Below, piece by piece: positions 181-32,362 of a stretch of 43,870 bases of DNA (positions are counted from its first letter, which is position 1; the number at the start of each line of letters is the position of its first letter). The notes beneath the pieces were generated by a model. That model was not told the DNA's origin, did no database searches, and saw nothing but the letters and a program-made list of their open reading frames with translations. Origin of the DNA: Patescibacteria group bacterium. GTDB taxonomy: Bacteria; Patescibacteriota; Minisyncoccia; RBG-13-40-8-A. The stretch is from NCBI GenBank assembly GCA_018897295.1, contig JAHILA010000003.1, positions 1 to 43,870 on the forward strand. Reading direction: 5' to 3'. A program made the translations under genes and the position numbers.

Positions 181-257
181 TATGCCCCGTAGTGAATCCT
201 CGACTGCTGCGGAGCAGTAAGATAATTAAATTAGTCGAGGATCTACTACGGGGTATG
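181..257 (+). repeat. Start-codon palindrome, copy 1 (upstream of holB)
   Basis: This is a 77-bp element with TATG at both ends. The left arm (181-205) and right arm (233-257) form a long stem with one conserved G.T wobble and one A.C mismatch. Between them lie a small hairpin (CTGCTGCGGAGCAG) and an AT-rich stretch. The right TATG contains the holB start codon at 255. The left TATG opens a 12-codon ORF, MPRSESSTAAEQ. Four other copies are at 2624, 6474, 23283 and 32280. A possible -10 (TATGAT) lies at 165-170, inside the IS end. Confidence 0.9.
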
Positions 258-2623: not shown

Positions 2624-2773
2624 TATGCCCCGGTACTGAATTTTCGACTGCTCCGACTGAAGTCGGAGCGTATACGAGGCAAAAAATAAATAATAACTAA
2701 TCAATAATAATTATCTAAACTTGATATTTCGACAACTTAGTATAAATATGTCGAAAATCTAGTACGGGGTATG
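2624..2773 (+). repeat. Start-codon palindrome, copy 2 (long form, upstream of proS)
   Basis: Expanded 150-bp copy with TATG ends. The left arm contains GTACTGA where other copies have GTAGTGA, and the right arm has the compensating change (CTAGTAC instead of CTACTAC), so pairing is kept. One extra G sits in the left arm. The middle holds a hairpin (GCTCCGACT-GAA-AGTCGGAGC) and a second pairing (TTTCGACA with TGTCGAAA). The left-end ORF is cut to MPRY. The right TATG holds the proS start at 2771. No -10 box at the 7-nt spacing is seen here. Confidence 0.85.
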
Positions 2774-5253: not shown

Positions 5254-6036
5254 ATGAAAAAGATTTTTTTAATATTTTTAATTTTAATAATTGCTTTGAT
5301 TATATTAAATATCATCCCTGGCCTTACAAAAGGATTGGGGAATTTTGTTTACAAAATATTTTCGCCAATAGGGAGGTTTTTTTCTAATATCGGAGACGGA
5401 ATAAGCGGTTTTTTTCAGGTTATATTTTCAATCGGCGATTTAAATAAGGAAAATCTTACATTAAGGCATGGAAATTTAATTTTAGAAGCCGAAATTGCCG
5501 CATTGAAAGAAATGAAAAGGGAAAATGATATTTTAAGGGAGGCATTGAACATTTCCAAATCCGGACAGCAGATTCTGGAAGTAGCCTCGGTTGTGGGGAA
5601 AGATGTTCAGGGAATCCAGGATTGGATTTTAATAAATAAAGGTTTAAAGCACGGCGCAATCAAGGATATGATTGTAATTTCGCCGGAAAACGCATTAGTG
5701 GGCAAAATCAGCGAAGTTAATGAGAATTTTTCAAAAGTAATATTGATTATTCAAAAAGATTCGGTTGTTGCCGGGATTATAGAAAAAAATCGCATCGAGG
5801 GATTGGTAAAAAGAGACGACAAAGGCGGATTATTTATAGATTTCATACCGAAGAGCGAAAATCTGGAAATCGGCGAAAGGATAATTACTTCTGGCATGGA
5901 TAATCTTTATCCTAAAGGGATTTTAATCGGTAAAATCGAAAGCATTGATACATCGGACAACCAGATTTTTAAAAAAATAACCATTACTTCGGCTGTTGAT
6001 TTTTCAAAACTTGAAAGTGTTTTTATAATAAAATGA
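5254..6036 (+). CDS. mreC: Rod-shape-determining protein MreC
   Basis: Periplasmic scaffold of the elongasome linking MreB/MreD to PBP2. The 260 aa have one N-terminal membrane helix (residues 3-20), a coiled-coil-prone stretch (about 68-95, LRHGNLILEAEIAALKEMK) and the beta-barrel domain with ISPENALVGKISEV and GDNxxPKG-like ITSGMDNLYPKGILIGKI. The start is 1 bp after the mreB stop. The end overlaps mreD by 4 bp. Confidence 0.93.
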   Translation: MKKIFLIFLILIIALIILNIIPGLTKGLGNFVYKIFSPIGRFFSNIGDGISGFFQVIFSIGDLNKENLTLRHGNLILEAEIAALKEMKRENDILREALNISKSGQQILEVASVVGKDVQGIQDWILINKGLKHGAIKDMIVISPENALVGKISEVNENFSKVILIIQKDSVVAGIIEKNRIEGLVKRDDKGGLFIDFIPKSENLEIGERIITSGMDNLYPKGILIGKIESIDTSDNQIFKKITITSAVDFSKLESVFIIK

Positions 6037-6485
6037 GAATTATTTTGGTTATAATTTTTATTCTTGTCGTGTTGTTTTTACAGATTGGAATTTTTCCGCA
6101 TCTGAAAATTGTTGGCGTTTATCCTAATTTGATTTTTTTAGCTGTTGTAAGTTTAGCCATTACAAAAGACTGGAAAAAGAATCTTGGCTGGATAATTGTA
6201 TCTGGATTATTTCTGGATTTTTATTCCCTGCAGAATATTTTAGGAATTTCCGTTCTTGTTCTGCTTTTAACGTGCCTCTTGTCTCGATTTCTAAACAAGG
6301 AATTTTTAAAAGAAGAAAATAAATTATCGCTTATTTTAATTTTTTTGATTTCTTCTTTGTTTTACGAATTATTATTATTCATAATTGGTTCAAATCTATC
6401 ATTGCTTGGCTTAGTTGCTAAAATTATTTATAATTCGATTTTAGCGCTACCAATCTTTTATATAGTAAAATCTTATGCCCCGTAG
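6033..6485 (+). CDS. mreD: Rod-shape-determining protein MreD
   Basis: Small polytopic membrane partner of MreC. The 150 aa are almost entirely hydrophobic, with about five helices. YPNLIFLAVVSLAITKDWKKNLGWIIVSGLFLDF is the recognisable family region. The last residues (Ala, Pro) and the TAG stop are read from the left end of palindrome copy 3 (TAT GCC CCG TAG), so the element has replaced or capped the native 3' end. A -10-like box for the next gene lies inside this gene at 6461-6466. Confidence 0.88.
   Translation: MRIILVIIFILVVLFLQIGIFPHLKIVGVYPNLIFLAVVSLAITKDWKKNLGWIIVSGLFLDFYSLQNILGISVLVLLLTCLLSRFLNKEFLKEENKLSLILIFLISSLFYELLLFIIGSNLSLLGLVAKIIYNSILALPIFYIVKSYAP
6461..6466 (+). promoter_or_regulatory. 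Predicted -10 box (TATAGT) for mrdA leader
   Basis: TATAGT matches the sigma-70 -10 consensus at 5 of 6 bases. It lies exactly 7 nt before the TATG that opens palindrome copy 3, the same spacing as at 23270 and 32370. The -35 region is weak (TTTTAG at 6439). Transcription would begin at the first bases of the element. Confidence 0.5.
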
Positions 6486-6552
6486 TGAATTTTTGACTGA
6501 TGCGGGGCATCAAGATAATTTTTAATTAGTCAAAAATCTACTACGGGGTATG
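6474..6552 (+). repeat. Start-codon palindrome, copy 3 (upstream of mrdA)
   Basis: 79-bp element with TATG at both ends. The right TATG contains the mrdA start at 6550. The left end supplies the mreD stop and opens a 16-codon ORF, MPRSEFLTDAGHQDNF. The internal GATGCGGGGCATC can form its own hairpin or pair with the left arm ATGCCCCG, competing with the right arm CGGGGTAT. The arm bases TTTTTGAC are matched by GTCAAAAA in the right arm, a covariation against the other copies. Confidence 0.92.
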
Positions 6553-19069: not shown

Positions 19070-19864
19070 ATGAAAAATAATAACAAATCATTAATAGAAT
19101 ATATATCAGATTTTTCCCGATACTGTAAAACTGACAGAGATTTTTCTAACAAAACTATCGAAAACTATGGCCGGTATCTTAATCGTTTTATATCTTGGCT
19201 AAAAACCTCTAATTTAGCCCATCTTACTCCACAAGAACTATCAATTAAACACATAAGTGATTACCAGGAATACTTATCGAAACAAAACATTAAAAAAATT
19301 ACCCAAAATTATTACTTAATTGCCCTGAGGATGTTAATTTCCTATTTTATCGAAAAAGAAATTCCCTGCTCTATATCCACAGAAAAAATAAAACTATTGA
19401 AAACGGAAAAACAGAGGTTAAAAGATATTCTAACGCCAAAACAATTAGAAATATTATTGTTAGCGCCAAATGTGTCGCACAATATCGGCCTACGAGATAG
19501 AGTTATATTAGAAATTATCTCTTCAATCGGTCTAAAGGTCACAGAATTAACAAGGATAAATAAAAAGGATGTAAAAATAGATGATTTTACCAATAGAGCA
19601 ATTATAAATATTTTTGATAGAAAGAATAATATGCGATCGGTCTATTTGCCACATAAAACTACCGAATGGCTTATAAAATATTTAAAAAATAGAAAGGATA
19701 ATAATGAGGCGCTTTTAATAAACTACAAACCCAGAAAACAAAATGACCAGTCCCCTACCCGGCTTACGGCTAGGTCAGTCGAAAGAATAGTTCAAAAATA
19801 TGGAAATATAATAAATTTTTCGCAATCAATAACTCCAGAAATTTTGAGAAATGCTTATATGTAG
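19070..19864 (+). CDS. Degenerate tyrosine recombinase, lacks catalytic Tyr
   Basis: The 264 aa have a recognisable SAM-like core-binding domain (about residues 5-110, SNKTIENYGRYLNRFISWL) and the start of the catalytic domain (GLRDRVILEIISSIGLKVTELTRI). Key residues are changed: Lys156 replaces the first catalytic Arg, and Glu257/Asn261 replace the His residues around Arg260. The protein stops at 264, before the second His and the Tyr nucleophile. It is probably a non-catalytic partner or DNA-binding subunit. It overlaps the next gene by 14 bp. The codon choice is very AT-rich. No continuation of the recombinase domain is found in other frames, so it is not a simple frameshift. Confidence 0.8.
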   Translation: MKNNNKSLIEYISDFSRYCKTDRDFSNKTIENYGRYLNRFISWLKTSNLAHLTPQELSIKHISDYQEYLSKQNIKKITQNYYLIALRMLISYFIEKEIPCSISTEKIKLLKTEKQRLKDILTPKQLEILLLAPNVSHNIGLRDRVILEIISSIGLKVTELTRINKKDVKIDDFTNRAIINIFDRKNNMRSVYLPHKTTEWLIKYLKNRKDNNEALLINYKPRKQNDQSPTRLTARSVERIVQKYGNIINFSQSITPEILRNAYM

Positions 19865-20264
19865 AGATAATTTTATCACTTGCGAGGAATGTGTTTTGCG
19901 AAAATTGGCGTTTTTAATCGTTTCTGGGAAAATTAAAGCTCAAAAAATAAAATTTGAGAAACTGCCATGGAAATACGACCCTGAATTATATAAAAATCAT
20001 GCACACGGAGAAGAATGGCACAGAAAAATGATGAACGCTGTAGCAAATTATTTTAAGAAAAAAGGATATCAAACTTCATTAGAACCTATAATAAATTTTG
20101 GAAGAGCTGATGTAGGTGCTTTTTCTAAGTCTTCAAAGCCATCTATTTATATAGAAGTCGGGACAACTTCTTTGTGTAAACTTCTATATAATCTTTCAAC
20201 CATGGAAAATTCTATATTTTTGATTATCCCGGTCGAGGAATATATGATAGAATTTAGAACATAA
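19851..20264 (+). CDS. Unknown protein, possible PD-(D/E)XK-like fold
   Basis: 137 aa, not recognised with confidence. The first third has a CEEC pair and basic residues. The C-terminal half has HGEEWHRKMMNAVANYFKKKGYQTSLEP (a helix with a downstream Glu), then GRADVGAF and IYIEVGTTS, followed by a hydrophobic strand. The E...D...ExG order resembles the core of PD-(D/E)XK nucleases, but the usual catalytic Lys after the second Glu is Gly/Thr here, so it may be inactive or bind DNA only. It starts within the end of the degenerate recombinase gene and is 2 bp before the intact one, so the three are almost certainly one operon. Confidence 0.6.
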   Translation: MLICRDNFITCEECVLRKLAFLIVSGKIKAQKIKFEKLPWKYDPELYKNHAHGEEWHRKMMNAVANYFKKKGYQTSLEPIINFGRADVGAFSKSSKPSIYIEVGTTSLCKLLYNLSTMENSIFLIIPVEEYMIEFRT

Positions 20265-20266
20265 AT

Positions 20267-21211
20267 ATGGAAAAAAATATTACACTCCCCTATTTTGATG
20301 ATTTTCTATTAAATCTTCAAACAAATAATTTATCTCAAGAAACTCTCTACAACTACGAAAGAGATTTAAATGTATTTCAGGATTTCTTAAGTGAAATAAA
20401 TACAGAATTTAAAAATATTAATAAAAAAACAATACTTAATTATAAAGCTTATCTTACTTCTATAGACAGGAAGACAGCCGAGCATCAACATGGAGAAAAA
20501 AAACTTAGCAGTTATTCAATAAATAGAATGTTGTCTGTCTTGCGCTCGTACGTTAAATACTTGATAGATATGGACTATAATTCACCCATAGCCCCAGAAT
20601 CTATCAAGTTATTGAAAACCGAAAAAAAACATCCCAGAGTATCAGAATTTGAAGAAATCAAAAAATTAATAGAATCCCCCACTCAATTAGAAAAAAATAA
20701 AATTATTGGCTTAAGAAATCGTGCAATGCTAGAACTATTATTTTCAACTGGCATGAGAATCTCTGAACTTTTGAATTTTAAACAAGAACAAATAGATAAA
20801 AATGGCAGAATATTTATTCTAGGTAAGGGCAAAAAAGAAAGATTCGTATATCTTACTCATCGCGCTCAAAAACATTTAGGAGAATATTTAAAAGAAAGAA
20901 TGGACGACTCTTCTTTTGTGTTTATACCATTTTCTGGAAGTAACATGGACGAGAAAAATAGGAGGATAACACCCAGTTATTTGCAAAGAAAAATTAAAGA
21001 GTACAGAGAATTATTAGGAATTAATATTCCTCTATCTGCGCATTCAATCCGTCATGGATTCGCTACTTATTTAGCTGAACAGGGCGCTAACCCGGCCGCT
21101 ATCCAAATTTTATTAGGTCATGAATCATTAAATACTACCACTCGTTACGTTCACGCATCTGACCGCTATGCCCAAAAAACTCATCAAAAATTCCATCCAT
21201 TGAAAGAATAA
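20267..21211 (+). CDS. Xer-type tyrosine recombinase, intact
   Basis: The 314 aa contain all six catalytic residues: R164 (GMRISEL), K187 (GKGKKER), H259 and R262 (HSIRHGF), H285 (LGHESL) and Y294 (TTTRYVH). An N-terminal core-binding domain covers about residues 5-110. It could be the chromosome dimer resolvase of the cell or an element integrase. The nearby 13-6-13 inverted repeat and the degenerate paralogue upstream suggest a dedicated two-subunit recombination unit. The N-terminal domains of the two are alike in layout and share the IKLLKTEK segment. Confidence 0.93.
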   Translation: MEKNITLPYFDDFLLNLQTNNLSQETLYNYERDLNVFQDFLSEINTEFKNINKKTILNYKAYLTSIDRKTAEHQHGEKKLSSYSINRMLSVLRSYVKYLIDMDYNSPIAPESIKLLKTEKKHPRVSEFEEIKKLIESPTQLEKNKIIGLRNRAMLELLFSTGMRISELLNFKQEQIDKNGRIFILGKGKKERFVYLTHRAQKHLGEYLKERMDDSSFVFIPFSGSNMDEKNRRITPSYLQRKIKEYRELLGINIPLSAHSIRHGFATYLAEQGANPAAIQILLGHESLNTTTRYVHASDRYAQKTHQKFHPLKE

Positions 21212-23282: not shown

Positions 23283-23361
23283 TATGCCCTGTAGTGAATT
23301 TTCGACTGATGCAGGGCATCCCTATAAATTTTAATTAGTCGAAAATCTACTACAGGGTATG
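23283..23361 (+). repeat. Start-codon palindrome, copy 4 (upstream of rpmA)
   Basis: 79 bp with TATG ends. The left arm CCCTG, the internal GCAGGGCATC and the right arm CAGGG all carry the same change relative to copies with CCCCG/CGGGG, so three strands covary. The left TATG opens MPCSEFSTDAGHPYKF. The right TATG contains the rpmA start codon at 23359. Confidence 0.92.
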
Positions 23362-31735: not shown

Positions 31736-32282
31736 TTCCTTCTAAATTAATACTTTCCAGAATTGTGTATTCTGGGCCGGTTCTTTTTAAATTGCTCTGC
31801 ATTACTTCAATTGTCTCAACTGGAATTGAATATGCAAAATTATCATTAATCTCAGGTAGATCTCTAGCAATCTGATTTTTAAATCTCGCCAAAGTAATAT
31901 GGGGCTTAAAAACTCTAGTATTTGACCCATTTTCCAAATCATTTTGCAAATTCGCCAATTCCTGGCTTTCTTCTCCTTCAGCCCAGAACATTCTTGGTGT
32001 TGTGCCCGGAGGCCCAATGGTTATTCTTTTTAAATTAATAAAAAATGGCTGGTGTTTTTTTGCTACTTCTTTGGTCATTTTGCAAATTTCGTAAGTTTCA
32101 TCATCAGTAACATAGCCGATAAAAATAAGAGTGATATGAAGGTTTTCTTTTCTCACCCAGTTTATTTTATCCCCTGCCTTCGCTAAAGCTTCGGCGGGCA
32201 AGCATTTTCTCTGCCAATCTACCAATTTCTTTTTTATTCCGTCCGGCAAATTTATAGCAATAAATATTCTGCGTTTGTTCAT
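31725..32282 (-). CDS. thpR: RNA 2',3'-cyclic phosphodiesterase (2H family)
   Basis: The 185 aa contain RRIFIAINLPDGIKKKL at the N-terminus and two catalytic H-x-T-L motifs, HITLIFIG and HITLARFK. This is the hallmark of ThpR/LigT enzymes, which open 2',3'-cyclic phosphate RNA ends. The native-looking N-terminus shows that ATG 32282, inside palindrome copy 5, is the start. An in-frame insertion at 32176-32199 encodes CLPAEALAKAGD between the N-terminal helix and the first catalytic motif. Confidence 0.93.
   Translation of the reverse strand: MNKRRIFIAINLPDGIKKKLVDWQRKCLPAEALAKAGDKINWVRKENLHITLIFIGYVTDDETYEICKMTKEVAKKHQPFFINLKRITIGPPGTTPRMFWAEGEESQELANLQNDLENGSNTRVFKPHITLARFKNQIARDLPEINDNFAYSIPVETIEVMQSNLKRTGPEYTILESINLEGNEN
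32176..32199. repeat. In-frame insertion (LPAEALAKAG) in thpR
   Basis: A GC-rich segment with imperfect dyad symmetry around AAAGCTT, opening GCC and closing GGC. It encodes LPAEALAKAG on the - strand, where the family has a short loop. Symmetry is weaker than in the CCTGCC type. Confidence 0.6.
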
Positions 32283-32362
32283 ACCCCGTAGTAGATTCTC
32301 GACTAATTAAAATTATTTATTTGTGCTGCTCCGCAGCAGTCGAGAATTCACTACGGGGCATA
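32280..32362 (-). repeat. Start-codon palindrome, copy 5 (upstream of thpR)
   Basis: 83 bp, oriented with thpR on the - strand. The left TATG (32362-32359) opens MPRSEFSTAAEQHK. The right TATG (32283-32280) contains the thpR start. The arms read ATTCTCGACT and AGTCGAGAAT, a further covarying variant. The inner hairpin is GCTGCGGAGCAGC, as in copy 1. Confidence 0.92.

Follow-up and report, generated by a model that had tools for sequence, protein, structure and literature searches.

Palindromes at start codons in a Patescibacteria genome are probably MITE-like copies of a small element encoding a GIY-YIG nuclease

In the window analysed here, i.e., a stretch of 43,870 nucleotides of Patescibacteria DNA, five genes begin at the right-hand end of a palindrome, which raises the question of what these palindromes are and why they end at start codons. 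The original prediction described five copies with TATG on both ends, the right TATG including the ATG of the downstream gene. All five are present with both TATGs in place, and the genes concerned are holB, proS, mrdA, rpmA and thpR (Table 1). As was also proposed, the left TATG is paired with the right one in the RNA fold, through two G-U and two A-U pairs.

Copies at gene starts in the window and in the genome

The interior of the holB copy is made of 21-nt arms, an inner hairpin and an AT-rich part. The proS copy represents a longer, 150-bp subtype, with arms CCCCGGTACTGAAT/ATCTAGTACGGGG, and it is the mrdA copy that obtains the top score of the family covariance model. A mini-ORF like that of the mrdA copy is carried by most short copies, with a stop located 19–33 nt before the right end, and could possibly serve as a leader for re-initiation.

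Table 1. Palindromes of the window and the mini-ORF of the mrdA copy
Feature	Coordinates	Strand	Details
Short-type palindrome, holB	181..257	+	TATG 181-184, element 185-253, TATG 254-257; gene ATG 255
Long-type palindrome, proS	2624..2773	+	TATG 2624-2627, element 2628-2769, TATG 2770-2773; gene ATG 2771
Short-type palindrome, mrdA	6474..6552	+	TATG 6474-6477, element 6478-6548, TATG 6549-6552; gene ATG 6550
16-codon mini-ORF in the mrdA copy	6475..6525	+	MPRSEFLTDAGHQDNF, then stop; begins at the left ATG; its stop lies 23 nt short of the element's right end
Short-type palindrome, rpmA	23283..23361	+	TATG 23283-23286, element 23287-23357, TATG 23358-23361; gene ATG 23359
Short-type palindrome, thpR	32280..32362	-	left TATG 32362-32359, element 32358-32284, right TATG 32283-32280; gene ATG 32282

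Upstream of mrdA, the TAG stop of a mreD-like ORF (window 6033-6485) falls in the left arm (CCCCGTAG) and so is supplied by the insertion. Elsewhere in the window (19070-21211), two tyrosine-recombinase-like (Xer-like) ORFs flank a small gene, with no palindrome adjacent. The scan of the window gave no Rfam match, to a group I intron or any other known RNA, at gathering thresholds, and no integron attC core (GTTRRRY/RYYYAAC) was seen by eye at the palindrome ends.

The survey of the source genome, by pattern search of its whole 611 kb followed by inspection of 304 kb around the matches, yielded 29 scored copies: short ones of 69–100 bp, long ones of 131–143 bp (most with arms CCCCGTAC or CCCGGTAC), two nested composites and one copy with a gene inside. 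Like MITEs, the copies of 69–150 bp among these 29 are short, numerous, bounded by terminal inverted repeats and devoid of coding capacity. Two more copies, outside the 29, are cut by contig ends (C4, C5). The assembly (G000) is broken at identical nested 140-bp composites (contig ends C4, C5, C9, C10), so the true copy number may exceed the scored count.

We found that the relation to start codons holds well beyond the window. Indeed, 27 of the 29 scored copies adjoin the start codon of an intact ORF and are oriented in its sense, in agreement with the orientation rule first proposed. All 20 copies flanked by TATG lie at starts, against only 31% of the non-coding TATG sites called as starts in the 304 kb once copies are removed (p = 5e-11). 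Conversely, none of 359 intergenic TATG sites (element-borne ones excluded) bears a copy, vs 20 start TATG that do (p = 1e-10). The hosts include rpmA, proS, yebC (MSGHNKW...), hrcA (MDKLTERQQK...) and nusG, the copy of the latter (C21:1154) lying on the minus strand. The two exceptions are a copy with a TTGA repeat (C6:18619), whose right repeat opens a TTGACA...TATAAT promoter, and one with a CCAG repeat (C21:17069).

Target duplications, empty sites and choice of target

Judged from their sequences, the palindromes are insertions, as they are flanked by 4-bp direct repeats and as empty sites exist at three related loci. The idea of a mobile palindrome with a TATG target duplication stands as regards mobility and duplication (the 4-bp repeats vary, empty sites exist at three loci, some copies are nested, and identical ones occupy several sites) and fails as regards a fixed TATG. 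Indeed, TATG is not a fixed part of the element, since the flanking 4-mer varies between copies: mostly TATG in the source genome, with also ATGA, TGAA, TGGA, TTGA and CCAG, and CTTG, TCAA, TAAA, TTTA, CTGG and others in other genomes. In the TGAA and TGGA copies, the original ATG ends up on the upstream side of the insert, and the new start is a GTG made of the last G of the element and the TG of the repeat.

The search for empty orthologous sites that the original prediction had called for returned three of them, each with a single start codon (G160/G195, G125/G220 and G065/G159). The first, in G195, keeps the same upstream TATAAT...ATG stretch at the gene that bears the element in G160. The other two concern the longer, nuclease-encoding form described below, present at the MSSTKIINV... 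gene of G125 and absent in G220, and present at lysS in G065 and absent in G159. Three further candidates (L154, L155 and L099) were left out, their concatenated flank queries having matched one-sided or a shared insertion.

Copies are also inserted in one another. A 65-bp copy lies inside the inner hairpin GATGCGGGGCATC of another one and is flanked by a duplication of CGGGG. The same composite is met again at several contig ends, at breaks of the assembly, which suggests recent copying. A second subfamily, with CCCCGTAGTGAAAT arms, is repeatedly found inside the first one's inner hairpin, at the same position and with a CTGG duplication (L187, L190, L194, L199; G160, G195). At the site occupied by a nuclease element in G125 and G012, genome G319 has 16 nt of left arm (CGGGTAGTGAAACTTC) between two copies of TATATGTC (L328). 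This remnant would be either an aborted insertion or an excision scar and could inform on the mechanism. An rplL identity once considered for MSSTKIINVLKDD (L140, L141, L316, L321) was dropped, and we refer to it as a conserved protein.

Insertions in other genera (n = 91) fall into 47 at starts, 18 at TTG sites (of the −35 kind), 4 nested and 22 others, the latter matching neither starts nor −35 boxes. At the TTG sites, a −10-like hexamer is found 15–19 bp past the TTG hexamer in 14/18 cases vs 18% for TTGA generally (p = 5e-8, like the next two values only a guide), and TTGAC is read in 12/18 vs 17%. From this spacing and the TTGAC excess, the right duplication of the TTG class is a −35 box. 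At start-codon insertions (n = 107), TANNNT stands 5–9 nt before the ATG in 60% vs 33% of other leading genes (p = 4e-6) and Shine–Dalgarno-like motifs are rarer (10% vs 24%, p = 0.002); the −10 controls come from naive start calls, which dilutes them, and common descent explains some of the shared sites (L100/L109, L160/L181, C9:49270/L087), so that the p-values only serve as guides. In leaderless genes, transcription begins at or beside the ATG. A −10 box 5–9 nt before the ATG, together with fewer Shine–Dalgarno motifs, corresponds to the geometry of such genes.

Conserved arms and a longer form with a nuclease gene

The covariance model was built on the element without its flanks, and the start-codon link is therefore not built into it. 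It matches in 4 of the 6 genomes of the family; across the class, members occur in 65 of 384 genomes, from 55 of 294 genera. Across 87 copies, two-sided changes affect 20 of the 25 stem pairs, with 275 cells vs 76 in shuffles, a value reached in none of 500 shuffles; slid controls of the same test collapse. An old copy common to the source genome (C9:49270) and to another genus (L087) is decaying.

The two arms are alike except at positions 10-11, where one side reads GA and the other AG. This swap is present in 53 of 54 nuclease elements and in all readable copies of the source genome. Arm-to-arm identity at these positions is 0.00 in the source-genome copies and in the nuclease elements and 0.02–0.05 in other MITEs, against about 0.9–1.0 at nearly all other positions (at least 0.96 in nuclease elements). 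As the difference is invariant, the hairpin always bears the same G-T/A-C double mispair. The swap is probably a recognition feature, since simple palindrome homogenisation would erase it.

One copy of the source genome (C16:715-1009) carries a GIY-YIG ORF between its arms, without its own ATG. Having lost it, this copy is probably dead, and current mobilisation in this genome would then need another source. Five further GIY genes of the genome lie outside such elements. Among the 384 genomes, the closest relatives of the C16 nuclease are mostly found in elements of about 300–350 bp with the same arms. A named scan for relatives found 391, of which the best 80 were analysed. These 80 come from Patescibacteria or from metagenome-assembled genomes labelled only bacterium (Parcubacteria lineages, Gottesmanbacteria, Daviesbacteria, Kazan, Berkelbacteria, Uhrbacteria). 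Viral contigs contained none, and phage carriage was rejected for that reason.

By a fixed end pattern, element ends were clear in 58 of these best 80 of 391; the pattern gave none in the other 22, a few of which have ends visible by eye. With clear ends, 42/58 adjoin a start codon. Judging by their N-termini, the host genes include groES, hrcA, proS, dnaE, recR and topA, and the nuclease gene is in the sense of the host gene in 39 cases and opposed to it in 0. In elements ending T...A, TGNN is duplicated in 7/10 cases, so that the A of the element and TG rebuild an ATG; a 5-bp duplication with an unpaired T would be an equivalent reading. Many nuclease elements also have a short ORF that stops close to the nuclease ATG. 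An in-frame fusion, with the left ATG as start of the nuclease ORF, was rejected as a rule, only 4 of 40 being in frame.

The protein, of about 85 residues, matches the Pfam GIY-YIG domain (PF01541, E about 1e-17) with invariant Y, G, R, H and E columns. Its structural model has a pLDDT of 93, the nearest solved structures being UPF0213 (1zg2), SLX1 and I-TevI, and a median dN/dS of 0.15 indicates purifying selection. No known transposase was seen between the arms, where the GIY-YIG ORF is the only one. MITEs are commoner in genomes with close nuclease relatives (13/21 vs 51/362, p = 2e-6), an association only and not a proof of mobilisation. The MITEs have their ends in common with the nuclease elements, the GA/AG swap included, and the latter would be the autonomous form. 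In Daviesbacteria (L262), a nuclease element lies after codon 2 of its host gene, with ends CCATG...CATGG, and its right end gives a new in-frame ATG.

Mobility, rival explanations and known systems

We consider it probable that the palindromes are MITE-like non-autonomous copies of a Patescibacteria mobile element, the full form of which (about 300–350 bp) has inverted repeats of about 20 bp around a single gene for a GIY-YIG nuclease of about 85 aa, and we infer the following mechanism of mobilisation and targeting. The nuclease, with a fold near those of UPF0213 and SLX1, would mobilise both forms through a hairpin or cruciform of the arms, and would make staggered cuts in the target. The target would be promoter DNA, probably the melted or junction DNA of an initiation complex, held open or kinked. 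In leaderless genes, +1 would coincide with the ATG, so that the cut would fall on it, and one lineage would use the −35 edge as target. The insertion would be tolerated by regeneration of the start codon at the right junction, where it is either kept in the duplication or formed by the last base of the element and TG. The host promoter would drive the nuclease, and ribosomes would begin the host gene at its right-hand start, either directly or by re-initiating once they have read the left mini-ORF or the nuclease ORF. Re-initiation is possible given where the mini-ORF and the short ORF of the nuclease elements stop; direct initiation and skipping of the hairpin are the alternatives.

A bolder proposal, in which our confidence falls a little short of even, is that of a previously unknown minimal class of transposon. 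The 85-residue GIY-YIG nuclease would be its whole mobility enzyme, would recognise hairpin ends marked by the GA/AG mispair and would target promoter complexes or leaderless starts, essential genes surviving because their start codon is rebuilt. If true, this would be a very small insertion system with a sharp target rule and a class of mobile elements without recognised transposase, relying on a nuclease domain that elsewhere is known from homing and repair. Its insertions would naturally flag leaderless promoters in bacteria that are not in culture, and sequence data would allow the existence of leaderless gene starts in Patescibacteria to be tested. The annotation of start sites and small ORFs would also be affected, 27 scored genes of the 611-kb genome starting at an element.

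Other explanations have to be weighed against this one. A weak preference for short motifs (TATG, TTGA, TGAA), combined with selection that removes insertions not leaving promoter and start in working order, would suit a compact genome (about 16% non-ORF) and copies placed exactly at promoter edges (−35, start), where the duplication restores function. Purifying selection in a compact genome may indeed contribute part of the start-codon bias. On its own, however, selection accounts neither for the emptiness of the harmless intergenic TATG sites nor for the fixed sense orientation of the MITEs, and we regard it as an unlikely explanation of the whole. The GIY-YIG gene could also be a passenger that invaded an existing palindrome, movement being ensured by some other enzyme, of the host or not: most copies per genome are without the nuclease gene, the five other GIY genes of the source genome lie outside such elements, and GIY-YIG proteins are known mainly from homing and repair. 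This is rather improbable, because nuclease elements of different genera are alike in arm structure, size and target rule, and because they are found at many different genes with no other gene between the arms.

A regulatory leader, which the original prediction had envisaged, would be a cis-regulatory RNA (a start-sequestering hairpin or a start-codon bypass) kept for gene control and copied around. The stem conserved by compensatory changes, the start codon paired in the fold and the mini-ORF ahead of the gene start in most short copies would all fit with it, and T4 gene 60, where a bypass goes along with a homing nuclease, offers a precedent. However, a DNA hairpin substrate would equally show a stem, the host genes are unrelated, in other genera many copies precede promoters or have inserted into one another, orthologous genes exist without the element, the old copy shared by C9:49270 and L087 decays, and Rfam has no match in the window. 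We reject this role as the main function and give the leader explanation little chance of being correct. The GTAG of the arm had also evoked the tag of REP palindromes moved by a RAYT (Y1 tyrosine) transposase. The motif is present, and a Y1 protein is encoded in 7 of 9 tested genomes, yet the copy-rich G160 and G322 are without Y1 transposase, and no such arms occur within about 1.5 kb of the Y1 gene of the source genome or of three others examined. Y1 enzymes should leave no target duplication, and the 4-bp ones observed here are at odds with their chemistry. The REP/RAYT system (PMC3733652) likewise has small palindromes with GTAG, as an unpaired tag, whereas here GTAG is paired inside the stem, no Y1 gene is linked, targets are duplicated and the elements lie at gene starts, REP being downstream of genes. 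A RAYT origin is hence hardly credible.

The mobile element that we favour shares with MITEs and insertion sequences (DDE transposases) its inverted repeats, a target duplication of fixed length and short non-autonomous copies beside a longer coding form. It differs from them in that the coding form has only the GIY-YIG nuclease and no DDE, HUH, serine or tyrosine recombinase, that the arms bear an invariant GA/AG mispair, and that the target is a start codon or a −35 box. The bypass cassette of T4 gene 60 and the mitochondrial byp elements are also hairpin insertions flanked by matching codons, with a linked homing nuclease in T4. They lie inside coding sequences and are skipped in elongation, whereas our elements occupy the start codon, and their bypass is only conjectural. 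The closest solved folds to the predicted nuclease, the UPF0213/YhbQ-like and SLX1 GIY-YIG nucleases, belong to cellular proteins, SLX1 acting on branched DNA, and we know of none that is the enzyme of a mobile element.

If our reading is correct, this would be, to our knowledge, the first mobile element that targets translation start codons. The original prediction knew of no described element with a fixed relation to them, and the open-access literature searched (subscription journals and preprints aside) yielded no earlier description of a start-codon-targeting element or of a bacterial GIY-YIG gene with inverted repeats. GIY-YIG homing endonucleases (I-TevI, T4 seg genes; PMC2988022) have the same catalytic domain and are likewise selfish nuclease genes whose host gene survives. 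Homing genes occupy one homologous site, with neither inverted repeats nor target duplication, whereas our elements have both, with 4-bp duplications at many unrelated sites. A homing endonuclease gene was rejected, the elements lying at dozens of unrelated host genes and not at a single conserved homologous site.

In the portions of a J Bacteriol 2024 article considered here (PMC11270868), GIY-YIG insertions in CPR rRNA genes are described as unlike introns, as lying at sites of poor conservation and as departing from the homing pattern. They come from the same bacteria and have the same domain as the palindrome-linked nuclease. Those portions report them only in rRNA genes and mention neither inverted repeats nor a target duplication nor a rule on start codons. 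The rRNA-gene insertions may be of the same family as our nuclease elements. The mobile element, if real, would help account for the abundance of small GIY-YIG genes in the genomes of CPR bacteria.

Genes of neighbouring types were also observed. The source genome has two adjacent GIY-YIG genes of another type (G000:C2:6197-6821; L071, L072), without clear inverted repeats. Related GIY-YIG genes at four other loci (L143, L145, L149, L150) are without the ends described here and have a C-terminal LKSGWGxRTI-like motif; they possibly represent a different type of element.
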